Of a stretch of 64,000 nucleotides of DNA, positions 6,801 through 63,430 are shown in pieces. The notes below the pieces were generated by a model that was not told the origin of the DNA, did not search any database, and saw only the letters and a program-made list of their open reading frames with translations. A program made the translations under genes and the position numbers. Location: the NCBI GenBank assembly GCA_963971285.1, contig OZ020244.1, positions 19,592,001-19,656,000 on the forward strand, given 5' to 3'. Source of the stretch: Astropecten irregularis (Eukaryota > Echinodermata > Asteroidea > Paxillosida > Astropectinidae). Every line of letters begins with the position of its first letter. The stretch's first letter is position 1.

Positions 6801-9800
6801 AATTAATTTGATTTGAATTGAATTTGCATTGATTGATTTGACAGGGTTTGTAACCAGCTGCGTTGTGATTGGAGCGGCCACTGGTGAAATGGCATTTCCA
6901 GTCATTGTAGGCAGGGTGAGTCATTTTACATCACTTCATTTTGATAGTCTCTCCGTCTGCAAATTAATTAAAGTTGAAAATCTGAAGAAAACCCGCGCTT
7001 GTTTGTTTGTTTTCAAATAGAATTACTGTTCTCTTGATTTTTGGAAAATATGACTGATATAATTTTTGAAGTAGAAATGAATGCCAACTTACATTTGAGG
7101 CTATGCATGGCAGAAATAAATAAAGGTTTTGTGTTAATACCATGTGACATATTTATCTCTTTTGTGAGTTTCGGGTGACTTTGAAAAGAGCTGGTTAACT
7201 TGCTATTCCGGCCAGTATTTGCTCTGGCTGCCTTCAGGAGATTAACCGGTTCTTTTCAGAGACACACCCATACTCACAAAAGAGATGTCACATGGTGTAA
7301 CCGCAAAACCTATTACTTTAGAGTAATGCCATTTTTTCCATTTAGTATTCAGAAGCATGACGAAATGTACATGATAAGAAAACTACCAATATTTAATGAC
7401 AGAAAACACTTAGTATGTCTTCTACTTAATTTTTGGTAGCATTATATTGTGGTCAGTATTCAGCAATTTTATAGGTTTCTATGAAATGGTTTGCTGGCGC
7501 AGCATTAAAAACAAAAGCATCTGTCTCCTGCTCCGGCTCCGGCTTCGTCTCTGTAATACATATGCTGAAAATATAGGTTGTGGTTTTTCATTGAAGCCGA
7601 AGTTCTATTTTCTTTTTCAAACCAGAGAATCTACTTCTGAACCGCAGACTAAAGCCTCTATTTCCATGTGCGTAATTCTAGAATGGATTCACGAAATGGA
7701 GCTGGAGCCCGAGCCGAGATTTGAGTCCCACTCCAGTTTTTCTTACTTACACTTTTCAATGACTTAAAATTAACCAGTTCACTTTTCAAGGATTTTTTTT
7801 TTAATTTCTTGCATATTTTTTACTCTTCTATTCTCTTTTTTTGTTGCTCTTATTGCAGGTTTTCTTCCCAATTCAACCATTCATCTTTCTTATATTCTGC
7901 CAAGCTGTTAGTATTGTTGGAATTTTTGTTCTCGTCACACTTATGGTTGTTGGCTATTTGCCAAATAAAGTTCCAGGTAAGAGACAGTAGTAACTTTTTT
8001 ATCTGTTTGTTTTGTCAGAAAAAAAACCCAGAATAATGTATTATTTGTGTATTTTCGAGTGGCTTACTGTGGTCTGATGTAAGAGTACAAGTAACAAATC
8101 ACTGCATACTGGTCATATATCAGAATAACGACTTGTCACTGACAGTCACTTTAAGAGTTAGGAGGGCCTGTGGTCGATTTCACAAAGATTTACAATTCAT
8201 CTTTTAGATGAGTTGTTAATGTTTCCATAGTAACGAGTATTGTGACATCACGCTCTGCTTAGCAATTTTAAGATTGATACGCATTTTACGATCTGTCTTA
8301 GCCTTTAGTGAAATCGAGCCCTCAGGATACATAAACATAAACAGCGTTTTTATGAACTCTTGTTTTCCATGTTCTTGCCCATTGTTTGTCACGAATACAC
8401 TATAACGTAAAAGCTGATTTCTGCTGCTTGTTTTTCAACTTTCATTCAAGCTTGTTAAATTTTTTTTTCTCCATTGTCAAGGATTTTCCGGGGGATTTTT
8501 TTATCTCAGTTTTATAATCCAAAATCCAAATCATCACTAGAGTGTCTGTGAAGGTTACACAATCTCCGAACTCGGCGTCAGTCTTCCTAGTTCCGTTGAC
8601 GTACACACAGCTCACTCTTGTTCTTATCAGAAAAGTCTGAATAATTGAAAGCCTATAGCTACTGATGGAGGACGCGGTTAGCACAGATAGGGGGCTTGAG
8701 GGAGCAGTCTCCAGACCCTGAATTAGGAATCATGAAGCCCTCCCCAGTGTCTCCAAATCCTGGATTGACATTTTCAGAGGAGTATAGTCCACGCTAACCC
8801 CTCACTGAGAAGCAGTTCAAGTCGTATTAATGTCCTCGGGAAAATCTCAAGGGGGGACCATGTGTGAGTGCGTGGGATTGACAGCAAGCTTTACAGTCGG
8901 ATAGTGTGAAGAAAAAAAAAATGTCATGAAAAAGTTTGATTTTTTTTTGTACTCCTATATTTTGGGTCAGATTCTGTGCATTGTTTTGTATTTATGTTCC
9001 CTGTCTTGATTGTGAAAAACTAAAAAAATCATGCATCATCTGACCTCAATGATAGGCATTGATTTTGATTTAATCAGCACCCTCATAGTAAGTTGCAAAA
9101 GGTGATCAGGGGTCGATTTCACAAAGCCCAACAATCTTATGTTACAAAGGATAACTCATCGGTAGGTGGCAAGTGCGTTAGCCTCTCACCAGTGTGGCCC
9201 GGGTTCGATCCTGGCTTGGGTCATGTGAGTAGAGTCGTGCGTTGGTTCTCTCCTATGCTACGAGGGTGTTCTCCGGTTTTCCTCCCTCCACAAAAATCAA
9301 ACACTTTTGATCTCAGGCTGTGCTCCGTGATCATATATGGATTGAATTGTGCTGGCAGCCATAGGTGCCGCTGTCAACTTGATCACGTTGTAACGGCATC
9401 CTTTGCAATTCAGCGCCTCAGCTGCCAGTAAGGATGATTAGCCCCCCAAATTTGTATTATTATTATAATATCATATCCTTCATAGGGCTGCAATGCATCT
9501 TAATAGTCCTATAATTGATAGTAAGTTCGGTGAAATCGACTTCAGGCCTTAAAGACTAACAGAATAACTTGCTTGGAAGTGATGATATGTTTTTACAGTA
9601 GCTTCTACTTGAGAAATGGTGAAACGTCCGCGACATCAAACTATTTCAACATCCAATCAAATCTGGTTATTGTTTTTTTGCAGCCATCGCCAAGGCGCAG
9701 AATGCATTCACGTGGTGCCGACAGTGCTTCATCACCAGCAAATCCCAAGGTCCGATGGCAGACCACTCCAAGATGTTCACCAGCCTGGTCGATACCCACC

Positions 9801-22990: not shown

Positions 22991-33700
<10,710 letters not shown>

Positions 33701-41072: not shown

Positions 41073-44000
41073 TTACAGGTATTTATCAAGACTCCTGGCC
41101 AACCTGATCAGACCACATGCCTCCAGCCCATCCTTCAGTCTCGTCTTCATCGCAGCGCCGTCCGCCTGTTGAGGGCGCTCTCTCCACCACCTCATCAGCA
41201 CCGCCGACGTCTTGTCGCTGGTCGTGCCCTGGCACTCCTCCAAGGCCCGGATGTCTGCTTCCAGGTTGCCACACTCCGACATGGGCAGGCGACGGGCGAA
41301 CGTCTTCCAGTTGGTCGTCTGGGCAATCAGTTTGGCCACAGTTTCCAAGGCTGGGACGGGTGTTGCATCTACATAAGCAGTGATGAAAATGCCGATTAAT
41401 ACGAAGTGTAAGAGTCTATGGTTTCTATAGTTTCCGCATTTGTTCGGAATTCCTGTTTGACACATTTGATTTGATATATAGGAGAAGTACGTACCACTGA
41501 CACTGTCTGGTTGTGTTACTAGACTAGCCCACTCTAAGGCATGCTGCTTCTGGGGTTGATTTCCTCTCTGGTTTTGGTACACTGAAAAAAAAAAAAACAT
41601 TCATGAACACATGTCTATTCTATTCCATCTTCCCTAGACTCATGTGCATTGTGCAATGTCAAGTAACAACTCTGTTTTTATTTCCACCTAATAATTGAAA
41701 ACTAAACTTGTTTGATGAATTTAGCCACAAGATCAAATCAATTGCAAAAGCAGTACAAAATCTCATTATCTGGGATTTGCTTCCAAACTGACTTTCGAAC
41801 AGGCAATTTCACTAATTCTGGAAAACTGGCACTCCGTTTGATGTTGTAATAACTAGCCTAAGCATAATAAATGGAAATTCTTGTAATGATAAGATAGGGC
41901 AATCAAAATATTGGAGAAATGAATAAACTGTTGAGTTGCAAGAAGTAAGAAGAAACAAAAAGATGCAATTTTTGAAAAAATAAAGTTTTTAGTAGAATAC
42001 AAGGCTCTTCTAATGATCCAGATGACACTTGAGCTTCTCTTGTATAGTGCTCTCCACAGAGGGACCATCACATCAAGGCCCAATTTTACGACCAAAGCTC
42101 CTGCCCCAAGTATGGCTTGTCAGTTCTATGAGATGCAGTTTCCCCCCAAGCCAGTTTAACGCACATAGTCAACAGCTAAATCAATTGTGAAACACATGAA
42201 CGACAGCTGTTTCTTTTTAATTTTAGTGCATTTCCAATTTCAAGCTGCTTACTTACAGTGAAATGTACAGTTGCTTGGAGCATCAAAAACATAGTTGCCA
42301 GTACCACTAACGTTGTACTTCCTAGGCATGGACAAAATGGTCTGGTTGTATTGCACATCTATGGGATGGAAAAAACAAAACAACAGTCATACCTGAATAC
42401 TGCTTACAATGCAAGAGAAAAGTCACTTCTATTTCAACTTGTAAAAGTGATCTGATGAATCAAAATCAAATTCTGTGGACAATTTCACAGATTGTGAGTT
42501 TGGTCCCCGCCACAATAATGACTCTCTGGCCTTGTGTCCTTGAGCAAGACACTTTTTGTAAATATTGTTTCTCGCCACCAAGGAGTAAATGGTCACCCAT
42601 AAAGGAAGAGATACAGGTAGGTATGGAAGTTTGGCTATGACAAAATCCACCATAATTTTAAAAGGGTTTTGATGACCAGTCCAACTTGTCCCCAAGTCCA
42701 AAATGTTGCCGTTGGACATGTGTTGGAGTTGGGCAGACGTAGTACTCAAATTATTAGGAATTTGCAAGTTGTTAGGAAGACATATGACCTTCAGACTGGT
42801 CAATATCAAAAAGTAGGTGGAATAAACTGCTGTGTTCAGGATTTCATAGAGTGCTGGGTCAGAGACATGGCAAAGGTCATGTGATGAGACTACCTGATTG
42901 ATTGACTGTGGGAGACACCTTCTGCTTCTTCATCATCGCCGGCGTCTGGTCCTCTTCCCCACTCTCCTCCATCTTCCGCTTGGTCAGCTCCTCCGATTCC
43001 ACACAGCTACGCGATGCTGGAGGCAGTTTACTGTTAGCTAGTGTCTGACCCTGCACGGCTGTCTTGTTTATTGCACAAGAAGCTGCAGTTGCCGGATGTT
43101 GTTGTCTTGTCATGCTTGCATTACTGGCGTGACCGACTGCAGCTTGTGTCATTCCGCTGGTCAACCCTGGTTGTTCCTTTATGGTTGTGCCTGGGACCAA
43201 ATGAGTAGGCCTTGAGAGACCTTCTTCTTGGTGTTTACTATAATACTGACTGCTGGAGAGCTCTGGGGCATACGCTGTATGATGGTTCCTGGTCAGGTCT
43301 AAGGTTGGCACCACTTGTCCTTGGTCAGTTTCGTCGGTGCCACTAGTTGATGAACCACTACCTTGGGTGTCATCTACCCTGAGATATGGCATCTTACCAA
43401 GGTTATTGCTTATGTCAGTCTTCAAAGGGTTTTCGTTCAGGCAGGGTACATTCTCAAACTGATTCTCATTCTGGCTCTTCTCTGGTGCTGGAGTGAAAAC
43501 ACTGGATGCCTCTTTGTGAGATGAGGACGATGTCCATTCATCGTGGCCATCACCAACTCTCTGGGAGGTTCTCAAGACATTACATGTATTATCTAGTCCA
43601 CGACCTGAAAAGTCTCCTTCAACCTGGTCACTGCTCATGCAGCGTCCCTCCTGTGAAGTGCCAGAGAGATAGTTCTCCTGCTCGTTTAATTCTCTTCTCC
43701 AGTCTCCTTGATTGTCTCCCTTTCCCTGTGCCAGGCAGCCGGCAACATCCTCACTCTCAGGCAAGATCTGAGAACAGCAGTCCGCCTCATCCATTGTCCT
43801 CGCATCCAGTAGGCAGGGGTTATTCAGAGAGATGGTTGATGTTGTCCTTGTACTGTGCAAGCAGCAAAAAGAGCCCTCAAGCAGTTGATTGAGGCTCCAT
43901 CTCCAATAATGGTAAAAACCAATCATCCATGATTATATCCACATCAGGTTTTCCAACTAGGGGTGACAATAAAAAAACAAATTCACAATTTAAAAAAAAG

Positions 44001-46999
44001 GTAGTATAGTGGTGCATATTATAACACTGGTCTGTCATTTTCAGCAATGTTAAGATCAACAAAAATGAAACAAAATGACTACTCTCAGCGAAATAAGCTG
44101 AATTAATCCTTAAGTGGTTCTTTGAATTAATGTTCTATGCACTTAATAGTATGCAAATTAGGAAAAGCATAAGGCATTATCATTTATGGGGAGTTTCCTT
44201 GACTTGATTTTAAACCTCCCAAGATGGCGACATTATCGTCTGAGCTTTGGTTGATTTTAGAAGAGAAGGGGCTGATTTTCAAGCCTATCTTTAATGTCTA
44301 CCGGTAGCTGTTTTATGGGGACATTTCAGCGCAAGTATGATGGGTCTTTACCGGTATATGATATTTCTTAAATGACATACGATTCTCTGGAGTATTGGCA
44401 TGACCCTTGAGTCCCATTCTTAATGATGTTATTGTAGGTCCAGTATTTACACATACCTATTATTTTAGTAGGCCTAGGCCTATTAATTTTTGTATTAAAG
44501 TGATTCAATAAAATAAATGAAATAAAACACAGGCCTAAAATAATGCTAGCCTAAAATTTCTAAATGAAGAATCAATATAATGGAAGGATTCTAGACTCAA
44601 TAAATAAGCACAAATAATTACTGTGTTCCCATTACCTACAAAAAATAGAACACAATTGTACAAGTTATAGCTGCATGTAATGTTACTAGCTTAGTGCTGC
44701 CTGCTGGTGCTATAGTGAAGTAGGCCTACAACTTAAACAACAACACAATTCACAAGTTTGTTGGGTCTGTCGTCTGCTAAAATAAATCAGCATTGATAAG
44801 GAAACCACAGACATAATCTTTCCCAATTTCTAGTTCCATTTTACACTTGATATTCTCCTTACCATTTGCAGCTTGATTATTCAATGATAACCCAGCCAAA
44901 AGAGCCGTGGGAAATAAACATAAACATCAATCAATAAAATTATGAACAGTAACAAAAGGACCTACCGACGCTTGGGTCCTGGGGCGGGTGCACGCGTGCG
45001 CGCCCTATTATTACTAGCTGTAGTCTTCTTCCAAGGCGAGTTAGGTCGTTATTTGTAAATCATGCAGTTTCTTCATAAGATTTCTATGTGTAATCATCAA
45101 CTTCTTTCTAATTGTAGACTTGAATTAAGCCTATGAGACGAAGCCATATACCTGAGGTCGTATGCTGGAAGACTCGCAATCAAATCATGTTGTAAAATCT
45201 TAAGGGAACCAGACTTTCTTGTGCAAGATAAGAGCGCCCTCTATTGATGAAGTTTCCAATACATGCAGCAGCTGCTGCTACTTGCTAGTGCTGGGTGCCA
45301 AAGAAAAAGAAGTTTAGTCAGGACTAGGTTGTTGTTTTTAAGGATTCCCTCGTTTGCTGCTAAGTCTAAGTCCTAAATCTTCCGGAATGTTGTCACTTGT
45401 CACTTTGTCCGCTTTAAATGGTTGATTGGTGACAGGAGCTACAGTACTAGCTAGCTAGGCGGGTAAGTATTTTTTTTAAGCAAGCAAAGCAAGCAAGCAA
45501 GTCAAGTGAACTAACCAGCTCAACCACCACGGTCAGCGGTTTCAGGTCAACTCGGTCCGTAACCAACTCGGTCCGAGTCAACTCGGTCCGTGACCAACTC
45601 GGTCCGTAACCAACTCGGTCCATGACCAACTCGGTCCGTAACCAACTCGGTCCGAGGCCAACTCGGTCCGTAACCAACTCGGTCCGTGACCAACTCGGTC
45701 CCTATGGGAAAATGCACGCAAAAACGTCTGGTAATTTTGTTGCAGCAAAACGAGTACGAAGTCTCGCAAATTGCGTGAATTTAACTATTTATTTAGGTCT
45801 ATTTATTTATTTATTATCTTAAAATCCTTTAAAAGAATGAAAAATACATTGACAGGTGCAGCCCAGGGCCTGACAAAAAGTAAAAAAAAAGAATAAAAAA
45901 AAGGGTCATCAAAAGACGTGCCTTCCCAAACACCTGCCAATTATAAATCTTATATTAAATTACGTTATATGTATATACACATTAATTAAAACAAAGCTAA
46001 AAAAACAAAAACACATAACAATCATCATTATTATTCATAAATTGATTTATTAATTTTAAACATAAAAAGCACGTTTTCATAAGGCATTTGACTTCGTGTA
46101 TAATTTAATTAATATTTTAATTAAAATTGTATTGTGCCATTTTATTCAAATAATTATGGTATCAACATAATAAGACATAATTTATTTCTTCACGGTTTCA
46201 GCCACAAGCAAAACATATTATTATGTTATGATGACATTAAAAAACATTAATGCAAGTAGCCTACATGTTGTACACTGCTGCTGAAAACTGCATGGATTCT
46301 TTTTTGTGTACGTTTTCCCATAGGGACCGAGTTGGTCACGGACCGAGTTGGTTACGGACCGAGTTGGTCACGGACCGAGTTGGCCTCGGACCGAGTTGGC
46401 CACGGACCGAGTTGGCCACGGACCGAGTTGGCTTCGGACCGAGTTGGTCTCGGGCCGAGTTGGTCACGGACCGAGTTGACTCGGACCGAGTTGGTTACGG
46501 ACCGAGTTGACTGGCACCCCGGTCAGCAATACTCAGCACTTGCACTAGCACTAGCACTAGCAGTAGCAGTTGTTGATAAGCGAGTAACACTTGTACTACT
46601 CTCTGACTAGTACTAGTTGCGATGATCGTAACCCTAGGACTGACATGGGGACTGGGACCTTAGGCCTCATAGGGTTATGATCATCACAACTATTGTTAGT
46701 AGCAGTAGCAGAAGTAGTTGCGATGATCGTAACCCTAGGTCTGACATGGGGACAGGGACCTTAGGGTTACGACACTTTGTTAATAAAAAGTTATCGAAAC
46801 ACTTTTTGGCCAAGTTGTGAAATAGAATTGTCCTTAATTTTCCACTTTCCAAAATCCCAACACAAAATCTGACTATATGGATGTGATTGGTACTTATCAA
46901 TGAGTCATATGAAACCACTTTGAATATCGAAAGATCATTTTCTGCAGAAAAAATGACCCAAAACTTACCGAAGGTGTCTAGATTCCCTCCGTTCGCCAT
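41073..46999 (-). CDS. Death-domain protein, unnamed
   Basis: The secure minus-strand exons are 43852-42894, 42358-42257, 41581-41495 and 41368-41073 (stop), all GT-AG. Two likely 5' exons, 46999-46969 (MANGGNLDTF) and 43956-43920 (GKPDVDIIMDD), join in frame and give 503 residues in total; they need a 67-bp intron between 43919 and 43853. If they are wrong, translation may start at MDEADCCSQ, which has a good Kozak context near 43795. The middle is long, polar and of low complexity (Ser/Thr/Gln-rich), with a basic run MMKKQKV. The last 95 residues form a death-domain-like six-helix pattern: LETVAKLIAQTTNWKTFAR, ADIRALEEC, SAVLMRWWRERP, LKDGLEACGLIRLARSL. Such domains assemble receptor or adaptor complexes in apoptosis and NF-kB signalling. 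No membrane segment, kinase, caspase or CARD is seen, so an adaptor role is inferred. Rab lies head to head with it. Confidence 0.72.
42490..42650 (+). repeat. tRNA-derived SINE (family S2), partial
   Basis: The segment ttggtccccgccacaataat, ttgtgtccttgagcaagaca, ctttttgtaaatattg, ccaccaaggagtaaatggtc matches 50553-50745 and, more loosely, 57782-57960. The tRNA head is mostly lost. It lies in an intron of the death-domain gene, in the opposite orientation. Confidence 0.65.
45234..45247 (-). promoter_or_regulatory. CTCF-like motif
   Basis: Plus strand gcgccctctattga, minus strand TCAATAGAGGGCGC. It matches about 12 of 14 positions of the CTCF core. It lies in the large first intron of the death-domain gene if the 46999 start is right, otherwise just upstream of that gene. 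Confidence 0.3.
45541..46515. mobile_element. Foldback element with inverted arrays of a 15-bp repeat (TU-like)
   Basis: The left arm (45546-45702) holds about 10 copies of accaactcggtccgt. The right arm (46324-46512) holds about 12 copies of its reverse complement, acggaccgagttggt. The arms are bordered on their inner sides by cctatgggaaaatgcacgca and its inverted counterpart gtgtacgttttcccatagg. The loop is about 600 bp, AT-rich and non-coding. Long inverted repeats made of 15-bp tandem units are, as I recall, the defining feature of sea-urchin TU foldback elements. The peptide repeats in the ORFs here (DRVGYGPSW) are by-products of the 15-bp period. Confidence 0.75.
46621..46675. repeat. 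55-bp palindromic unit (CGTAACCCTAGG...) outside the palindrome arm
   Basis: The segment gatcgtaaccctaggactga, catggggactgggaccttag is a diverged copy of 46725-46775, which forms the outer end of the palindrome's left arm. The unit is itself an inverted repeat (cgtaaccctag/ctagggttacg). Confidence 0.6.
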
Positions 47000-48690
47000 C
47001 AATCGGCCATTTTGAATAGCGCGCAGTGTGCCATCTCGACCAAATTACGTCACGCGAAATGTCGTTTTGGCTGTTCCACCTTTCAAACTCAAACTCACAG
47101 CCCTATGGAGGGCTTGTATCACGTGCGCTCGCGTGTGTGAGTGTGTCCATAGTACTCCATATCAACCGTTAAAAAAATTACAGGTTATAGAATTGACCAG
47201 ATCCCTCAAAACACCCTATACGTGTGCCGAAACTGCCGAATTAAGTTTATTTTTCGCCGCTCATGACAGGTGAAGAAAAACGTATGGCGTGATTTGTTTT
47301 CCGACATCCAACACCGACATCGAACACATGCGAAAATACGGTTCATGGAGGAAGAAATGGAGACTGGAGTGATTTTTTTTTTGTATACATGAGATGTATG
47401 CGTTTTATCGTTGCGAGATCTAAATAAAAATATTCTGATCGACCGTCCTTCCAAAGTGACCGCAAATCGCAGGCTCATCAGCTTATAAATCTTACTTGAA
47501 TTTCACTCAGTTAATTTGTTCAATTGGCCAAGTAGAAACACTCTTTTCATAATTATACTTAATCTAAAATAAATATCGCAAAATCCTTCCGAAACCGACC
47601 GACGACGATCGCATTAAATTAAGACGTAAACACATTGCCCACACCGCAGACAGACAGCCTGGTATCCGCGTGAGTAATAGCTACAGTTTCAAAGCAAACG
47701 TTCATTGTGTACGTGCACCAGCGAAAGTCTCAATCAGTACATAACACGTGTACGTGCCGTGGGCTTGAAATGAAGTGCATGTTGCGCTCGGTCGGAAGGG
47801 CTACCTTTTTGGGATCGCGGCCGGGTTCGTTCCACCGTTACGGACGGTGGCTCACGGCCGGCCGGCTCGGTAGAGATTTGCAGTAAGAAATGGTGTTTTT
47901 TCCGATGGAATATTCCGGTGATATTTTTAGGAATAATATCCTCACTGTCCTACCAGAGTACCGGGTATGATCATTTTGGGTGTAATTGAAGACCGGATAT
48001 ACCGACCACTGCGCGATCTGTGATAAGGTGGATGACATTTTTATTTCTGTTTGATCATGGATTGGGTCGGCGCCGAGTTTGTGACTTGCTTGTTTGTGGG
48101 ACCATTCGTAAAGGAAATCATTTGAAAATCTTAGCAATTTCCTTCATTTCATGATGAAAGATTTGAATTGTCAGCGGCAGCTTGACATGGGCAAACAATG
48201 CGGACTTAAAATAAAAAAACCTCCTCCATACTGCACTGTTGCGATATGCGTGTACACGGTATATCACAGCGCACGTGTTATTCTGGGAACATCCTCCATA
48301 GGGCTGTGAGTTTAAGTTTGAAAGGTGGAACAGCCAGAACGACATTTCGCGTGATGTATTTTGGTCGAGATGGCACACTGCGCGCTATTCAAAATGGCCG
48401 ATTGACGGCGAACGGAGGGAATCTAGACACCTTCGGTAAGTTTTGGGTAATTTTTCTGCAGAAAATGATCTTTCGATATTCAAAGTGGTTTTATATGACT
48501 CATTGATAAGTACCGATCACATCCATGTAGTCAGATTTTGTGTTGGGATTTTGGAAAGTGGAAAATTAAGGACAATTCTATTTCACAACTTGGCCTAAAA
48601 GTGTTTCGATCACTTTTTATTAACAAAGTGTCGTAACCCTAAGGTCCCTGTCCCCATGTCAGACCTAGGGTTACGATCATCGCAACTATA
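46719..48690. repeat. Large palindrome: two arms of about 420 bp, about 1.1-kb loop
   Basis: The left arm is about 46719-47130 and the right arm about 48262-48690. They are reverse complements at about 95% identity by eye (four differences in a 91-base stretch beside ctgtgag/ctcacag). Each arm contains the same outward-reading mini-exon followed by the donor GTAAGT: atggcgaacggagggaat, ctagacaccttcg on the minus strand at 46999-46969, and the same with ACG in place of ATG on the plus strand at 48405-48435. The loop holds a CpG-rich core around 47800-47875 (gatcgcggccgggttcg). It could be a duplicated promoter/first exon or a large foldback transposon. Confidence 0.85.
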
Positions 48691-48810
48691 GCAGAAGTAG
48701 GCCGGCTATCATGGGTGATTGTGGATTGATGGGTACGAAAACTAGACCTAACGTTAGCATGGTTAGTATTACTTATTAGGCCTAGGCCCTAGTAAGGAAA
48801 CAAAAATGGT

Positions 48811-48957
48811 AACAGGTCAACTCGCCTCCTAGCTGACTCGCCTCTTACCGACTCGCCCCTTAACGACTTGCCCCCTCCCCAACTCGCCTCATGACCGACT
48901 CACCCCTTACCAACTCGCCTCCTGGCCAACACGCCCCCTGGCCGACTCGCCCCTGGC
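48811..48957 (+). repeat. Second 15-bp tandem array (ACCGACTCGCCCCTT type)
   Basis: About nine units follow the pattern ccNactcgccccttN (caactcgcctcctag, ctgactcgcctctta, ccgactcgcccctta and so on). Period and layout match the 45541-46515 arrays, with CGCCCC in place of CGGTCC. No inverted partner array was found, so it may be one arm of a decayed element of the same group. Confidence 0.75.
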
Positions 48958-49006
48958 TTTTTTATCACAAAAACAATGGTAACGGTTTACTATATTGACG
49001 ATTCTA

Positions 49007-49509
49007 TGGTGGCGCAGAAGAGACATTGCACATCACAAATATTTGCGCACATATTTATGATGTACGACATTCATACATCACAAATATCTGCGCACATTTT
49101 CTTGGTGTGTTTTTTTCAAGAAGCTGAAGGGTCTCATTGAGCGTCGTCTGGTTTCCGGCCATGCAGTCTTCATATAACCACGGAGCTATAAAAAGGACTT
49201 TTTATATAGGCCTAGTTACCATGGAGAATGTACACAACTTAGTACACGACAGAGACGAGGGGCATGTCAGCATGTCAAATGAATGTTGTTTTGCTTATTT
49301 ATTAGCCACGTCATAGGCGTTATACTTATAGGATCTTAGTCTGGTTCCCAGATATTTGTGATGTACGATGTTTGCACATCACAAATATTTGCAAACATCG
49401 TACATTGCAAGCCAAATATGTTTGCAGATATTTGCGATGTACGATTCGTCCTACATCACAAATATATGCACAGACATTTGTGATGTGCGATGTCCCTCCT
49501 GCGCCACCA
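49007..49509. repeat. Foldback/MITE element, 0.5 kb, TA-flanked
   Basis: The left end tggtggcgcagaagagacat, tgcacatcacaaatattt is mirrored at the right end by tttgtgatgtgcgatgtccc, tcctgcgccacca. TA lies on both sides, which fits a TA target duplication as in Tc1/mariner-type MITEs. The word acatcacaaatatttgc and its inverse recur several times inside. Confidence 0.75.
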
Positions 49510-49789
49510 TACGATACCTACAGATAAAGGAAATCAAAAAAACTTTTTGTAAACATGGTAAAGAGACTATGTTCGTGGTGTCCTCTTCAATGTTATTATA
49601 TATAAGCAAGGTTTAATTTGTGGAAAGAGGACAGGGCTTTGATTTTTTAGGGAAATTATGGGGTAAAAACGGTAACAAAGATGCGGCTTTTCACGGACGA
49701 CCGCAGACGAGAATATCTATAATTTAGTTTCTGCTCTCATTGTGTGGAGGTTTGATACATTTGGTGTACATGTAGGTACCAGACTAAAC

Positions 49790-49915
49790 AAGACTAGCCA
49801 GACCAGACAAAATGGCAGACGGCTGTTTTCAAGTTTGCAACAAGCTCGTAAAAAAATTGTATTTTTACTCTGTCAGCTTGCTGACATCAAAATGGATATC
49901 AAACAAACCGTTCAA
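49790..49915 (+). promoter_or_regulatory. Candidate 5' UTR exon of the Rab gene
   Basis: A good donor (ttcaa|GTGAGT) is at 49915/49916, about 170 bp before the acceptor of the first coding exon (ttttgcag at 50089). The sequence agacaaaatggcagacggc upstream resembles a transcription-start region. Its short upstream ATGs make a coding role unlikely. This is inferred from splice sites only. Confidence 0.35.
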
Positions 49916-50099: not shown

Positions 50100-53000
50100 A
50101 TGAGTGAGAAGCTTTTCAAAGTGATCATAGTTGGGGACTCTATGGTGGGCAAGACTGCCTTTGTCCAGCAGTATGTCCACAGCAGATTTGACGAGAACTA
50201 TAAAGTGACCGTTGGAGGTGAGAATGCTGTTTTGGATTTTCTTAGTTTCACAGGATCAAACACATCTGTGAAGTTTAGAGAAAATACTTAACTTGTGCTT
50301 GGAAGCATGATGAATAGGCCTGTATATTTTAATTTGTTCACATGTAGTCCATAACAAGTAATGTTAAGGGCCTGTTTGTTTAATGCACAGGATCATGAAT
50401 CCTGCGGATCCGGATCCCATTTTAGCATACCCTGCATAGGAGGTGGATTTGCAAATCTGGGATCCTGTGCGTTAAACAAACAGGCCCTAAAAGTGTAGTA
50501 GTAGTAGAACTTTGCAATCTGCAACTTGATTGACATTTTCATTTTGTTGGGTGCTGTAGCCTAGTGGTCTGGCGTTTCTTACTCAAGATCCTGTGGTTAA
50601 TCTACAGATTGTAGGTTCAAATCCAGCCATGGGCTCGTGTTGCTTGCATCCTTGGGCAAGATGCTTTGTCACATATTTCTTCTTTTCACCCAGGAATAAA
50701 TGGGTACATGTGAGGGTTGAGATGGCTTTGTGTGCTTGATAAGCCTATTATTATTTTTCATGTCCTTATTTATTTATTTATTTTTTTGACTGAATGCAAT
50801 CTGTTCCTTTCTCAGGAATATGCCAAACTTTTAATATCATGCATTCTGTCCAAATACATGTGTACTTTGCAGTTGATTTTGCTCTGAAGAAAATCCAAAG
50901 ATCAGAGGATGAGATCATCAGAATACAACTATGGGATATTGCAGGTAGGCCAGCTCACCATAATCCCTATTAATCCTCCCAAATAACACCTTCAGCTACA
51001 GGAAGATAGTTATGTAGATCGGTTTGCGGAAACACCATGTAACAAACTTGTAAGAATCGTTCGTACTTTCACACTTCTATTTCATTCGCATTTCTCGTAA
51101 GGTGTTAAAGTTTTGACTAGCCTGCTCTGGTCATCATTAGGAGACCTAATGATGACTAGAGCAGGCTTGTAGAAACATTGAGACCTTATGAGGAGTGCGA
51201 ACGAAATAAAAGTGTGAAAGTACGAATGATTCTTACATGGTGTTTCTGCAAACCGATCCACATACCAATTGTTACCATGCAAAGCCTCAAATCTTTCTAG
51301 GAAGATAGTTGTAATTCAAACTTTGACCTCCTTGGGCTTTGGACTCTTTTGCCATATTACATGGTTACTTGGGATTCACAATGGATATATGTGAATGGCA
51401 TGAAGGTGCCAAACCATTGCAAAGCTGTAGGTTACGTATTAATAATAAGTAGAGCTTGTGCCAAATTATGTGACACCAACAGTCAGGGGATGATCAGGGA
51501 GATCATTATTCAAATGTTACTTGCAAGAGACTTATTGAGGCTACATACATGTAATAGCACATGTCTAATTACAAATGCCCACAATTGGATATTAGGACAT
51601 GTACATGTATGTTTGTATGCATGCTTCCACATCATCATCTTTTTCCATTAAAATCCCACAGTGTTTCAACACCTAGGCCCTTTTCCAAACCTCGGCTCCG
51701 GCTCAGGCTCCGGCTCCAGCTCCATTTCTTGAGTCAATTTTAAAATAACGGGTATCAAAATAGAGACTTTTGGCTGTGGTTCGGAAGTAGATTCTCTACT
51801 TCAGCTTCAATGAAAACCCACAACCTCTATTTTCAGCATATGGATTATGGAGCCGGAGCCGGATTCGGAGCCGGAGCCGAGGTTTGGAAAAGGGCCCTAG
51901 TCATCTACACAGCTTTTTCTTACATTCCACTGAATCGGTCAAAGTACCACAACCTTTATCTTGTGGTGGGTCTTATTAGATTTTGGGTAGTAAATGGTCC
52001 GAAAAGGAATGTATTCATTTTCAAGACATAGTAAAGCAAGTCACTGTACAATAAGCCATTTGATCTCATGATAATATATTACAAAATGTGCACAAGAGTT
52101 TTGTTAACAGAGTAATGTTTAAATTAAGCAGAATCTTGAACATTTATCGGTTGGGAAATCCTTGTACACTGGAGGTTGTTGGAAACCCACTGCCCATGTC
52201 AAAGGTCAATTCTTGAATGTACGTCTTGTGTGCTATTTGCTTGAAGATCTGATCTTCCTATTTTCTGTCAAACACACTGTGTAGGTGGATGTAGTGTGCA
52301 ATTCTCGGATGGAAATGACGGTAATTGGTGTTGCACTGCATGATCTGATGATTGTGTGCCTTCGTTCTTTCTTTTTCTTTCTTTTTTTGGGGGGGTTATT
52401 GCACCCCAAGTAAAGTTTCACTTAACTGTGTTTGCACACACCTTTTTATTATCCGTCTGGCTTGTCTGGTCACATTGGTGAGATTAGTAGCAAGGATTGA
52501 GAAACATTAGTTTTATATACGTATCTTTTATCAAGGTTCTGCAAGCCCACAATATTATAACTTTTTTCCCTTCTTTTCCCTGAGAACTTGCCACCAACTG
52601 ATTCCAGCCTGCCCATCTTTCAAAACTCATTTAAATTTATTGCAAAATAAACTTAATCATCAAATAACCACAAGGGAAACTGACTGAATTTAAAGTCATT
52701 GAAAAGTGAACAAAGAAAAATTGACTTGAGCGGGACTCAAACCGGCGACCCCCTGAATACTGTATGGTATGGTACTGTTTCTTTTTGATATTTTGTATAT
52801 TCTGAAAATTATACATGCGAAAGTCAGACACATTTTTGGTTGGAAAACATAATATTGAGGGGTCAATATTTCAGAATCCAAGATTTCAGAATGACCAAAT
52901 TATCCACAAAATTCACTAAATGATAGATAAACTGATATATATGCCAGTAAACCTTGTGTTAGTTTGAAGTCCTGATCATTGATATATTTATGGAGGTGCA

Positions 53001-56000
53001 TTAAATCATATCTAGGTTAATTTTTTAAAAGAAAAAATAGATGAAGTGATCTTGAAAGAGCTAAAAATTAGTCTTTAATGAGCAAACTGTTCGAAGGGTT
53101 TTCAAGTCAGATGGGGACACCCATGGTTCATGTCTTTTACCCACCAACTACTCCTCCTCCTTAAAGAATTCCCTTGCTGGCAGGCCGTCAGACACAAATT
53201 TGCTATGGAAATCGTGAAAAAAGAATTGAGGAGGATCACCACTTTTGGCTTTCATCAGTAATCTCAAATTCTATTTCATCATTCCCAATTTACGCATCTT
53301 TGTTTATTTTTGTTTTCTGTTCGTACAGTACGTGTACAGTTTTGTATTGTATGGGTGGTAGTTTTCTGTTTGACTTGTATACAGTGTAAAGCACTCTTTT
53401 GTTTCTGAGTTGAAATAATTACCGGTACAATAGTTTTGCACCAAATGTACATGAACATGTACAGTACTTGCACCAATATGTTGTAAGTAATTTCTGTCTT
53501 GTTGCCAGTGGACCTTGAACCTACAGAGTGTTATCATTTCATGTTTCTGTAAAAAAAAAACCGCAAAGGAAGGTCACACTTTCATATGTGGTTTTTCCCA
53601 TTCATGATAGTTTTAGCCTAAAGGGCTAGTGCTACTCAATTTGTTCATGTCCATGGATTTATAACACATGACTCTGTACACACATGTATCCTGATCCTTC
53701 TGTCACTACCATTTTAACATCCTTTGTCAAATTTAATGAGGCGTTAAGGACCTTGGCATGTTGACCCCATGATATCAGTTGTGCAGCACTTTCAGAATAC
53801 CAAGTATTAAACTTTCATTTGGTCTTCATTGTTGGATATTCAATTCAATTTCAATTGAAGGATTATCTGGAAAACTGCATCAAACAGTTTCCTCAGTTCA
53901 TTTTTTACCCAACCGGTGATGGTAAACAGGCTATTTATAACCTTTTTTAGCAGGCAGCTTTTGGCTTTGAGAACATTCCAGATTCATTTTGGTGCTTGGT
54001 TTTGGATAACTGGAAGATTTGAGTTCAATGATTTACCTCAAAATAGTACGACCGAAAATGTCACATGGCTCAAATTACAATAACAGGAATCAAATGTGGG
54101 AATAGTGGATTGTGGATCTTAGGCAGATATTTAACTCTTGCTCAGATCGGGAAATCAAGGTTTCTTTTGGCAGTTTTGAAACACTTGCTTAATAGGCCCT
54201 ATGTATTGGTGACGAATTGCCAGAAGTACACTTAGTGTATATTTTTTCATTTTCAATTTACAAGTTCATTGTAACCACTTGTGAAAGCCACAATTCCTTT
54301 AATATTGAAAGAAATTATCATAGTTATCATACATGAAGTTCTAAAATGATAAAATCCACATTCATATCGGGCCATTTGCAACAAAGCCCGATGCTTGATT
54401 TACATCCATATAATGAACCACATGTGTACTAATAACACATGTTGATGGTTTATCACTGGGGCTGATTTCACTATTAAAAACACTTTGCGATCTCACCTAA
54501 GCCCAAGTCCATCGCTAAACAGAATATTGCTATGCAAAGTAGCGATCGGTTTTCCGTTTAGCGACGGATTTGGGCTTTAGCGATGATAGCAAAGCGTTAG
54601 TGAAATCGGTCATTTGGGTATGTGATGGACACTAACTATGCTGCATCCTTTACTACTGTATAGCTTTTTTATTAGCATTGATGCATGTTCCTATACATAA
54701 GGTGCAAATTCATTTCATTTCAATTCAATGAACAGCTGGGAATGTGCATTTCTCATTTTAAAGGATAATAGCTGTAAGAGATCATGTTTGTAATGGACAC
54801 CAAAAACAACTACAAAAGTCATGGCCCATAGACCCATATAATGCTTTGTGTCAGCATACCTTGCATTTCTGTGTCCGTACTATACATGTATGTTGTGAGC
54901 TTGTGCAAGTGCTTGTGTACATGTATGTAATTGTGAATGGTTTCTAAGCTAAAATAAATGACGTTGAATATGCAACACTATGGATTTAAAGTTTAACTGG
55001 TCACATTTTTTGTGAAGAATTAAGTTTTGGGATATATGTATGTAACTATTAATTCATGTAATTTTGTTTCACATCTGTGACATGTATACTTGATGTTGAG
55101 TAAATGTGTTTATTATATTACTAATTTGACAGTTGGTGAGTTGGGACCATAATTCTATGCACAAATTCCAAAAATAAGCTTCACTTTTCAAATTAATGAC
55201 TATAGATATTCTATACAAATGTTATATTAATTAATATTAATTTGTTTATTACCACACCACTTTTGCAATATACAAAATGCACTATTTATACACATACCTA
55301 TCCAAATACATGTATTCTTGTTCCTTTCGCTACATTTGTTGGCATAATCGTCAATGCAAGTGTTTCACCAAACACCGCCATTTCAGGGTTTGAACTGATG
55401 CAGTAGGGACACGGCCATTTTCTTTAAGTGGCAATGGGCACTTCTGAGTGAGAACTACATGTAAAAAGTCGCGCCGATGAAACATTCAAAGGGGCATGGG
55501 GACAATGACCAGAGGAACTGAGACACTAGGGCACCAAGATGATGGCCATTACGTTTCCTCTCTAATGTTCAAACTCAAGAAACTACAACATGTGTGTGTT
55601 GCACTGAAAAAATCCTCAACTGTAGATACTATGCTTACATGCAATCCTCACACTGACCTTTGACCTTTTTGTGTGATGGTATTTGCACATAGGTCAGGAG
55701 CGATTCAGCAGCCTTACCAGAGTGTACTACAAGGATGCCTCAGCCTGCGTCATCATGTTTGACATTACGTCGCCAAAGTCCTTCAAGAGTGTGGTTAGAT
55801 GGAAGAATGATGTGGACTCAAAGGTTTTCCTGCGGGATATGAACCCTGTCCCTTGCCTTCTTCTTGCTAACAAGGTATGAGCCTTTCTAATGTGAGCAAA
55901 GAAAATTGAGTGGAGCGGGATTTGAACCTGCAACCCCAGTAATACTGTACCAGTGCTCTACCAACTGAGCTATCCAGCGCTTTGTAGATATCCCAAATAG

Positions 56001-57478
56001 TAGATTAACTTTGTTCGTTTGTCAGTCGGAAGCCACGAAACTGCTCACATACCGCAATACAGTACTCTCAAGGATCATTTTAGATACACACATCATTAGC
56101 AATGATGCAACCTGCGAAACAGTACATGTCGGGATCACTCAAAGAGGATGTAGCTTTCTAATAATGAAATCATATGAGCCCATTAGAAATCATTCCATAT
56201 TTTTTCCAGTTTTGTGTGCATTTATGTAAGCAGGATTTCTGATTGTAACAGGTTGAATTTGATCACCAGTTTTAGAGGTCTGTGATATGCATGCAAAACA
56301 CACTACATTGGAACACCACTAAACGGACATGGCAAGATGCACAGATATTGTCTGTTATAGTGGTCGTTGGTTATAGTGATCAAAAGAAACAAATGTTTAG
56401 TATAGCAGTGTTCATAGTGGCATTCCACTGTATCATATTTTGCTCATTCTGCATACCGGTAGTTGTTCAGGTGCATTAAGTATTTATACTTCAATGACAT
56501 AATTCAGTACTATTTTCAAATTGTATTAATTTAATGAGGATTCTCTTGTGGAATTGATATGCATGAAATTAAGAAATTAAAAAAAGCAGTCACAGTGCTC
56601 TGAAAACTGACAGAAACTGAAAGACTGACATACAAGTGTGACAGCACGCTGAATAAAGTAGTACATGTAATATCTAATTTTGTTGTTTTTGCTTTGGACC
56701 AACCAGTCGGATCTCGACGATGATCGCATCACTGACGAGGAGATCAAGAAGATGTCGCAAGACCACAGTTTTGTCGGCTGGAGCAAGATATCCGTCAAGG
56801 ACAATCTAAATGTGGAAGAGCCTATGCTGTAAGTTCCCCTCTGTCTAAACATGCTGAAAGTGTGACATCCAACAATGAAAGTCAGTCATTTCAGGTTACA
56901 TATTGTATAATATGATATATGTAGTAGAGTTTCTCTATCTCTCTGAAGTCAGTGGGATTATTACCCTTTTCATTTGCAGTTGGAATTTCTGTTGATTATA
57001 GAAAAATGTTAATAAGATGGAACACTGCTTTGGGTGTAGCATAAACCATTTTGAATTGGAATCCTTGATATTTGGTCACAGTTTATGTATCTTGATGCAG
57101 GAAGGATTTGACTACGTTTTTCTTCAGTTCAGTCTATGACTGTACACATCAACGCTTCGCCTCTTTACAAAATGCTGGTCACATTTCCAAGCTGCCATTG
57201 CTATTTAATAAAATGATTGCTTTATAGTTACCAAACAGGTTCTATTATATTCATGACTTGGGCTGTTGTTCTTATGTATTGATTTTGAATAGTTTCAACT
57301 TCATACCTGTATTCTTTGGCTATTGTTCATTGTCGACAGGTTTCTTGTGGAGGAGATCCTTGCCAGGCTCCAGTCCAGAGGTCGGGGGTCCATCATTGCG
57401 GAATTTACCGACGACGACGGGAGAATCAAGCTGCCTCATAGTTTTGAGAAACAAAGCAAGTGTTGTTGGCCATTATAG
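50100..57478 (+). CDS. RAB29: Rab32/38/29-family small GTPase, closest to Rab29
   Basis: The five coding exons are 50100-50217 (in an exon starting at 50090), 50873-50944, 55693-55874, 56707-56828 and 57340-57478 (TAG). Every junction is GT-AG with phases 1/1/0/2, giving about 210 residues. The G motifs are all present: GDSMVGKT (P-loop), the switch I Thr in YKVTVGVDFAL, WDIAGQE (switch II; the IAGQE variant of WDTAGQE is typical of the Rab32/38/29 group), LLLANKSD (NKxD) and ISVKDN (G5, SVK in place of SAK as in Rab29). YYKDASACVIMFD and PVPCLLLANK are nearly word for word those of human Rab29. The C terminus KCCWPL has a dicysteine of CCxxx form for geranylgeranylation. Rab29 acts in trans-Golgi and lysosome-related traffic and recruits LRRK2 in vertebrates; that role is only inferred here. 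A tree is needed to separate Rab29 from Rab32. Confidence 0.9.
50368..50487. repeat. MITE family C copy with TAA target duplication
   Basis: It begins gggcctgtttgtttaatgca and ends tgcgttaaacaaacaggccc. It is flanked by TAA at 50365-50367 and 50488-50490. It lies in the first intron of the Rab coding region. The interior words ggatccggatcccattttag and taccctgcatagg match 13614-13723 in inverted orientation. Confidence 0.88.
50553..50745 (+). repeat. tRNA-derived SINE (family S2)
   Basis: The A-box region is gctgtagcctagtggtctgg and the B box is gtaggttcaaatcc. A body follows with tgcttgcatccttgggcaag, atgctttgtcacat and cacccaggaataaatgggta. The cttgggcaagacactt word is common to many animal SINEs. 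Confidence 0.75.
51011..51267. repeat. Near-perfect hairpin element, 257 bp
   Basis: Left arm: tatgtagatcggtttgcgga, aacaccatgtaa, cttgtaagaatcgttcgtac, tttcacacttctatttcatt. Right arm: the reverse complement, ending tctgcaaaccgatccacata. The inner part is also palindromic (gcctgctctggtcatcatta / taatgatgactagagcaggc), so the whole element can fold into one stem. It lies in the second Rab intron. Half of it occurs at 37888-37976. Confidence 0.85.
51674..51899. repeat. MITE-like family D, best preserved copy
   Basis: The left end ggcccttttccaaacctcgg, ctccggctcaggctccggc and the right end gccggagccggattcggagc, cgaggtttggaaaagggccc are inverted. CTA lies on both sides (51673-51675 and 51897-51899). 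The interior is the reverse complement of the block shared by the other copies. Confidence 0.85.
52704..52775 (-). repeat. SINE S1 3'-end fragment
   Basis: The segment agtgaacaaagaaaaattga, cttgagcgggactcaaaccg carries the B box (on the minus strand, cggtttgagtcccgc) and the conserved end of family S1. The body is missing. Confidence 0.6.
54458..54611. repeat. MITE related to family B
   Basis: It begins ggggctgatttcactatt and ends gttagtgaaatcggtcat. Internal inverted words are taagcccaagtccatcgcta / tagcgacggatttgggctt and ttgcgatctcacc / gatgatagcaaagcg. It lies in the long Rab intron between exons ending 50944 and starting 55693; no further conserved exon was seen in that intron. Confidence 0.6.
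55895..56125 (-). repeat. SINE-like family S1, near full length
   Basis: On the plus strand the order is: gagcaaagaaaattgagtgg, gcgggatttgaacctgcaac (B box, inverted), gtgctctaccaactgagcta (A box, inverted), tcccaaatagtagattaact, tttgttcgtttgtcagtcgg, agccacgaaactgctcacat, ctcaaggatcatttta. It begins about 20 bp after the donor of the Rab exon ending at 55874. Confidence 0.8.
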
Positions 57479-58484: not shown

Positions 58485-58849
58485 GATACACACTGTATGA
58501 TTGTGGCTCTGTACTGTGCACTGAACCATTTAATAATATAATTTAAAAACTAATATGTATTTTCTTTTAAGCAAACATTATCATGTTTTAAGCAAAGGTT
58601 TATTATTTTTAAGAAAAGCTTCTGTGTGTTCGATGGGTTTAATGCTAGCCCAACTTACGATTAACTCTTGCAACTAGCTACTCAACTCAACTACTTTTAA
58701 GAGTAAACTGAAAACTGTACTTTTTCATCCACATTCCCTTTGATTAGTTTCGTTTAGTTGTTCTTCATCTTACATTCTGAATGTACATTGCATCATTTAA
58801 GATAAAGTAGCGGCATTATCATGCTTACTTAATATTATTATGCTTGGAT

Positions 58850-59030
58850 CGAATTAGGAGGTCCTGACGTGATTCGATCCTAGCAGGATCTTTATTCGAA
58901 GGCTAGATCTTTTTCAAAGGCTTTTTTAGCCTATAAAGATCCTGCTAGGTTCGAAACACGTCAGGCCCTCCTAACTCCAAGCATTTTATAAATTTCAGGT
59001 CATTATTTTGGCTGATGAGCAATTTATTAC
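58850..59030. repeat. Inverted pair of family E units with flank
   Basis: The sequence aattaggaggtcctgacgtg, attcgatcctagcaggatct is followed, in inverse order, by aaagatcctgctaggttcga, aacacgtcaggccctcctaa. Then comes the flank aagcattttataaatttcag, gtcatta, gctgatgagcaattta, as at 17760-17885 but inverted. It would fold into a hairpin of about 60 bp per arm. Confidence 0.75.
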
Positions 59031-63264: not shown

Positions 63265-63430
63265 CCCAAGTTGACCAATACTCTACCGACTGAGCCATCC
63301 AACCCTATGTTGGTGGTGTCCCAAATTGTCACAGAGTTTTCTATGTTATTTTGGCAGTCAGAACCTATGAAGTAACCACTCACATACTACTGTATGCATG
63401 CTTTTGCAACAATGCTGCAAACTTCACAGC
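63265..63430 (-). repeat. SINE-like family S1 copy
   Basis: Contains ccaatactctaccgactgag, ccatccaaccctatgttggt, gtcccaaattgtcacagag, ttggcagtcagaacctatga and accactcacatactactg. The B-box end is missing on the left. Confidence 0.7.

Follow-up and report, generated by a model that had tools for sequence, protein, structure and literature searches.

The window analysed here is a 64,000-nucleotide stretch of the genome of Astropecten irregularis (contig OZ020244.1, hereinafter C1, positions 19592001-19656000; the genome comprises 475.7 Mb in 168 contigs, hereinafter given C-numbers, and loci fetched from it are given L-numbers). Two genes in the window lie head to head, as originally predicted, and a stretch of about 4 kb between them was proposed to hold four inverted or tandem structures, all of which were recovered by self-comparison and tandem-repeat scans of the window (Table 1). 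The best self-BLAST E-values of the inverted elements range from 2e-21 for element D to 0 for element B and are beyond chance, and each of the four elements is bordered by its own target-site duplication (TSD), exact in A and B, matching at seven of eight positions in C and at five of six in D. Almost certainly, non-autonomous cut-and-paste DNA transposons from at least four families inserted here independently of one another, rather than the interval forming one unstable structure. As part of this joint explanation, and with equally little doubt, we recognise A and C as sister foldback families, B and its miniature derivative B' as a Mutator-like family with long terminal inverted repeats (TIRs), D as an IS3EU-type element and E as an older element. 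Structures A-D are assigned to transposons because each has many other copies in the genome, similarity ends sharply in the copies examined, and duplications of a length fixed for each family stand at the ends. The cluster is made of known kinds of element and does not represent a novel type of DNA structure.

Table 1 Features of the clustered interval and its flanking genes, in positions of the window.
Feature	Position	Strand	Remarks
Left 8-bp TSD of A	45530..45537	+	CGGTCAGC
Element A, non-autonomous foldback transposon	45538..46519	+	Inverted arrays of 16-bp units (10 left, 12 right), ~620-bp A+T-rich core
Right 8-bp TSD of A	46520..46527	+	CGGTCAGC, exact
B', 79-bp miniature derivative of family B	46614..46692	+	Both ends kept, without interior; flanks GACTAGTAC / TTGTTAGTA
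Left 9-bp TSD of B	46706..46714	+	TAGCAGAAG
Element B, 1974-bp non-autonomous transposon	46715..48688	+	~397-bp TIRs, 97% identical; Mutator-like layout
Right 9-bp TSD of B	48689..48697	+	TAGCAGAAG, exact
Left 8-bp TSD of C	48800..48807	+	ACAAAAAT
Element C, left arm of second foldback family	48808..48966	+	15/16-bp array, lacking the core and the right array; right end presumed, by near-TSD
Presumed right TSD of C	48967..48974	+	ACAAAAAC, 7/8
Left 6-bp TSD of D	48999..49004	+	CGATTC
Element D, hairpin-rich non-autonomous element	49005..49511	+	Ends TATGG...CCATA, IS3EU signature
Right 6-bp TSD of D, also left edge of E	49512..49517	+	CGATAC, 5/6
Element E, part of older dispersed element	49512..49860	+	Best piece of other copies 78-85%; D probably inserted at left end
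Ras-family first coding exon	50100-50217	+	Pfam Roc 6e-9, Ras 9e-9
Weak death-domain match	41073-41600	-	1.1e-4, 22.7 bits vs cut-off 22.6

Element A had been described as a foldback with inverted 15-bp arrays. The foldback is borne out, with a measured period of 16 bp and 10 and 12 units in the two arrays (Tandem Repeats Finder, 45548-45701 and 46324-46509). Its termini are asymmetric, reading GGTTTCAG... at one end and GGGTGCCA... at the other, before the 16-bp array begins. With the 622-bp core as query we obtained 40 full-length matches including the window copy (91-100% identity) and one partial match, from the best 40 of 332 candidates scored. The end motif, which occurs twice within some arms, has 235 + 235 exact matches in the genome (470, both orientations), compared with 0 for a reversed control. 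Over 30 loci including the window, 26 carry a perfect 8-bp TSD and one a TSD with a single mismatch. Long inverted repeats of short tandem units, found in dispersed copies with a TSD of constant length, mark A as a foldback element.

The arrays of A vary little in size or order. Arms at the GGTTTCAG end hold 11 units in 19/30 copies, 10 in 8/30 and 9 in 3/30, while those at the other end hold 12 in 25/30 and 5, 8, 11, 13 or 14 in one arm each. The order of spacer variants is largely alike between the 30 loci, and in copy L014 (19 units) all 16 variant letters fall at unit positions 12-15 and none at the other 12 positions. The target sites (n = 27) show only a mild bias, with T at position 4 in 14 and A at position 6 in 15. 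Three copies have altered arms: L027 and L035 carry shortened ones, and L016 has a 14-unit arm in which 13 spacers are identical and the end spacer comes last, a homogenised array unlike the mixed order elsewhere.

The second 15-bp array of the original prediction was also recovered. It spans 48818-48954 and consists of units of both 15 and 16 bp, without a full inverted partner in the window. This left arm belongs to family C, whose left end has 69 + 89 exact matches in the genome. Copies L083 and L084 are ~860 bp long; both ends carry an array, the core between them is unpaired, and perfect 8-bp TSDs were recognised by eye. The foldback character of the family is thus seen in these two copies, where inverted arrays occur together with a TSD, and the window copy keeps one arm. 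Among the three C copies with both arrays, two have a perfect 8-bp TSD and L075 lacks a perfect one. L075 itself (C27:9111450-9112450) is a compact copy, in which two inverted arrays surround a short loop. The arms of A and C are homologous (for example, 69% identity over 177 bp, E = 2e-14), and ACTCG is kept in every unit of L014 and L083, the A and C copies checked unit by unit. Since the arms align with each other and ACTCG recurs in every unit of these two copies, we take A and C to be sister families.

The proposed palindrome of about 2 kb corresponds to the 1974-bp element B, which is not palindromic throughout: only its arms pair (46715-47111 and 48293-48688; 97% over 397 bp by self-BLAST), and the middle of ~1.18 kb is unpaired and contains no transposase-like frame. 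A perfect 9-bp TSD flanks 7/7 B copies (the window copy and six others fetched whole), and the main aligned pieces of the six others are 89-97% identical to the window copy. Exact B ends number 644 + 664 in the genome, some of which belong to short derivatives such as B', whose exact family-B end was recovered at C1:19638614 in the genome search of B ends. The combination of a 9-bp TSD and long TIRs suggests, by layout, a Mutator-like element. Two further copies are unusual in form. L073 (C16:16721650-16725580) is a 3.8-kb B copy with its middle expanded into a long minisatellite that has a repeated frame of ~20 residues. In L008, a B derivative of ~95 bp (~2797-2891) is edged, by eye, by a perfect 9-bp duplication, ACTCAGCCT, so that even derivatives of B this short appear to have been able to move as units.

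The 0.5-kb hairpin element was correctly identified and is our element D, the arms of which match at 84% over 97 bp in gapped self-alignment and at 86% over 64 bp ungapped. From 30 fetched loci, after removal of one-ended loci, of duplicate entries for a copy and of L068, whose left end is altered, 11 distinct complete copies including the window remained; eight have perfect 6-bp TSDs, two have one mismatch and one has four mismatches. The window copy (CGATTC/CGATAC) is one of the two with a single mismatch. Fungal IS3EU elements have 6-bp TSDs and TAYGG..CCRTA ends in the excerpt of PMC12730594, and D, with its 6-bp TSD and TATGG..CCATA termini, carries the signature of an IS3EU-type element under this rule from fungal families; unlike them, D is built of internal hairpin repeats and contains no transposase-like frame. 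Element E is found, in full or in part, at 39 other places, with the best piece at 78-85% identity (best 40 of 2504 candidates scored). In L027 the E sequence reads GGTACGATACC, whereas the window reads D and then CGATACC, and D has therefore probably landed in the end of the older E. The left flank of the cluster (45180-45537) finds no match in the genome other than itself.

How these elements moved can be proposed from their class. Because no transposase-like frame was seen in them, each would have been mobilised in trans by a transposase encoded elsewhere that cuts at the element ends, with target DNA duplicated over 8 bp by A and C, 9 bp by B and 6 bp by D; the inverted structure would arise from the two matching ends of each element. 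The most likely role of the short tandem arrays in A and C is that of repeated transposase-binding sites, their units following a plan of near-invariant core and variable spacer with ACTCG common to both families. A more tentative extension, which we regard as possible and on the whole doubtful, is that one transposase reads both A and C via the repeated ACTCG core at 15-16-bp pitch, that transposition holds array size near constant, and that the families insert preferentially in or beside each other, so that clusters would build themselves.

Comparable architectures exist in other animals and in plants. The TU elements of Strongylocentrotus purpuratus (Liebermann et al. 1983) reportedly have long inverted repeats, an outer tandem array of ~15 bp and an 8-bp TSD, a layout that would match A and C closely in plan. 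The Tm1 Mutator/Foldback elements of root-knot nematodes, as excerpted from PMC3169594, have asymmetric short terminal motifs, a small motif and inverted arrays of 13-15-bp units; the same excerpt gives a non-coding member of 1080 bp, mostly 9-bp TSDs, variable unit numbers and no clear target consensus. A and C resemble Tm1, by description only, in having non-coding members, in lacking a clear target consensus and in the succession of asymmetric terminal motifs, small motif and inverted short-unit arrays, and differ from it in their 8-bp TSDs, their 15/16-bp units and the near-constant unit numbers of A. In Galileo, a foldback-like member of the P superfamily, tandem repeats of the long TIRs carry extra transposase-binding sites (excerpt of PMC3688188). 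Its long, internally repetitive TIRs serve as a model for reading the arrays of A and C, which we interpret by this analogy, with moderate confidence, as transposase-binding sites; unlike A and C, Galileo is a Drosophila element with TIRs of >1 kb and another repeat layout. Maize Mu has TIRs of ~215 bp and 9-bp TSDs in the excerpt of PMC2774946, and B shares with such Mutator-like elements the 9-bp TSD and long TIRs.

Several observations weigh against the proposed explanation or bear on the transposase that it calls for. An autonomous partner was not found for any family, and no transposase link was found for B. None of eight frames of 81-111 amino acids that lie in or overlap A, B and D had a Pfam match above cut-off, and neither did the single frames taken from L073 and L085; the L073 frame, at 123 amino acids the longest there, had no Pfam match, and the longest in L085 (133 amino acids) is a minisatellite with only sub-cut-off matches. 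The C copy L083 has no frame of 100 amino acids. Among the matches listed (100 of 470 A ends), 36 facing pairs occur, 33 of them at 0.88-1.16 kb and three longer (1.74, 1.84 and 4.0 kb); L085, the 4-kb pair, was considered as an autonomous A and rejected, being an A copy with a 3-kb insert. Matches to the transposase of Mutator-like elements (MULEs) number 33 in the genome and seven on C1. None lies within 66 kb of the A or C ends listed (10 and 23 compared), and none of the seven on C1 lies within 19 kb of the B ends listed. The P-type transposase (PF21787) gives 87 match rows in the genome. Among the matches listed, the nearest to an A end is 57 kb away (17 compared); one lies 2.6 kb from a C end (72 compared), but the orientation of that element places the match outside it, and P-type matches are dense in this region. 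The other near fragments are one at 6.9 kb from a B end and two, at 8.1 and 8.3 kb, from C ends. The 2.6-, 8.1- and 8.3-kb fragments all lie in the dense P-type region of C11, and more may lie similarly near. Otherwise no MULE, Merlin-type or P-type match was found within 17 kb of the listed A, B and C ends (three nearest per comparison, on shared contigs). In the one IS1595/Merlin-type element examined, from nine matches to PF12762, which we take to mark Merlin, the 24-bp TIR (GGCAAGAATTCC... / GGAAAGAATTCC...) is unlike the ends of A and C. The duplications themselves are not all clean, since 3/30 A loci have no recognisable TSD (three or more mismatches), the window copies of C and D have imperfect ones, matching at 7/8 and 5/6 positions, and B' has no clear one. 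Finally, the window C array is decayed, with ACTCG lost from several units, which fits a dead copy and not a functional array there.

The structures were said to be far denser here than in the rest of the window, and this holds in part. With inverted structures counted at E <= 1e-5 and significance taken from random-placement simulation within the window, they occur at seven places, three of them inside 4 kb, yet at least three of seven fall within 4 kb in 27% of random placements; adding three arrays of >100 bp outside A gives 4/10 in 4 kb, with P of 12%. Within the window, density over 4 kb does not by itself reach significance (scan P 0.12-0.27). When the span is widened post hoc to 6.4 kb, into the Rab intron with its two hairpins, the counts become 5/7 (P 0.007) and 6/10 (P 0.008). 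The 60 kb outside the interval contain four inverted structures (0.067 per kb), and 15 random 2-kb pieces of the genome contain two in 30 kb, with one A-E match (an E). Under the same 2-kb tiling the window scores in 4/32 tiles versus 2/15 controls, a low score because the tiling splits A and B.

Co-location was examined on C1 up to 33.5 Mb, with the window excluded and local shifts of 30-500 kb as controls. Within 10 kb, A and B occur together in 5/22 cases versus 1.0 expected (P 0.002), A and C in 2/22 versus 0.13 (P 0.007) and C and B in 2/8 versus 0.26 (P 0.02), about fivefold or more over shifted controls; within 3 kb the figures are 2/22 (P 0.046), 1/22 (P 0.043) and 1/8 (P 0.071), respectively. 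Another of A-E also lies near 9/29 other A loci (flanks of ~1.3 kb a side), and in two of these A is inserted inside it. Families A, B and C share neighbourhoods, and the window looks like one case of this general tendency, on small counts. A composite unit, in which C follows A at ~290-315 bp (three places including one on C8, B ignored), was rejected because the flanks and the A-C spacer in L019 are unlike those in the window.

Such sharing of neighbourhoods would be expected of a permissive or preferred landing zone, where several families are drawn by open chromatin or by intergenic DNA that tolerates insertions. This reading is compatible with independent insertion, and we give it an even chance: the 10-kb and 3-kb tests on C1 and the neighbours of 9/29 other A loci speak for it, and the small counts, the unremarkable 4-kb density and the only mild base bias at the 27 A target sites speak against it. 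The insertion hot spot of the original prediction survives in this weak sense, as separate insertions into a permissive stretch with co-clustering on C1 (A-B 5/22 versus 1.0). That the inverted arrays and palindrome instead make the interval an unstable, fragile site under ongoing rearrangement is very improbable. In its favour, the excerpt of PMC10164571 names long inverted repeats as a general cause of rearrangement, the core and right arm of C are gone, one arm of L016 is homogenised and arms of L027 and L035 are shortened. Over 30 copies, however, the A array does not look unstable, because unit counts are near constant (11 in 19/30 and 12 in 25/30 arms) and the spacers keep largely the same order; all four elements retain TSDs of their own, intact in A and B, and the earlier suggestion of fragility is not upheld.

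Inverted arrays are also hard to assemble, and arrays or palindrome could in principle have been misassembled. Such an artefact is contradicted by the exact TSDs that border A and B, by the distinct left and right arms and by the many independent copies with the same anatomy elsewhere, and we attach almost no probability to it. Scarcely more credible is a boundary or regulatory structure kept for serving the two head-to-head genes; the interval does sit between the minus-strand death-domain open reading frame and the plus-strand Ras/Rab-type exon, but A, B, C, D and E all belong to dispersed families, each also present on other contigs. Independent insertion of non-autonomous transposons thus accounts for these unusual-looking 4 kb as ordinary remnants of transposons from several families. 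What is gained is a set of clean families defined by their TSDs, and a sister foldback pair that offers a test bed for arrays as transposase-binding platforms; this pair, with its fixed array order, is the part that may interest specialists. In searches of the open-licence PMC literature we recognised no paper describing families A-E, which does not by itself show their absence from print, and the families are probably undescribed.

Other repeats were noticed in the window. The Rab intron contains, by eye, a short element with inverted ends GGGCCTGTTTGTTT...AAACAAACAGGCCCT (50367-50487), and the same end motif occurs in the flanks of L010 and L019. Further inverted or hairpin structures at 51011-51264, 51676-51896, 58840-58984 and 7124-7311 are probably more miniature transposons. 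Four related repeats (1-140, 30531-30649, 55907-56082 and 63281-63387) are 74-80% identical, and an Rfam tRNA match (55907-55979, 33 bits) overlaps one of them, so that they look like a tRNA-derived family of short interspersed nuclear elements. Elsewhere in the genome, 3 Mb of C11 (~19.0-22.1 Mb) hold 40/87 of the PF21787 P-type match rows and 5/33 of the MULE matches. Five P-type matches with identical scores and open frames of 809 amino acids (C1:14487373, C9:7911140, C14:16356354, C19:1448848 and C19:6008117) suggest a recently active P-like element.

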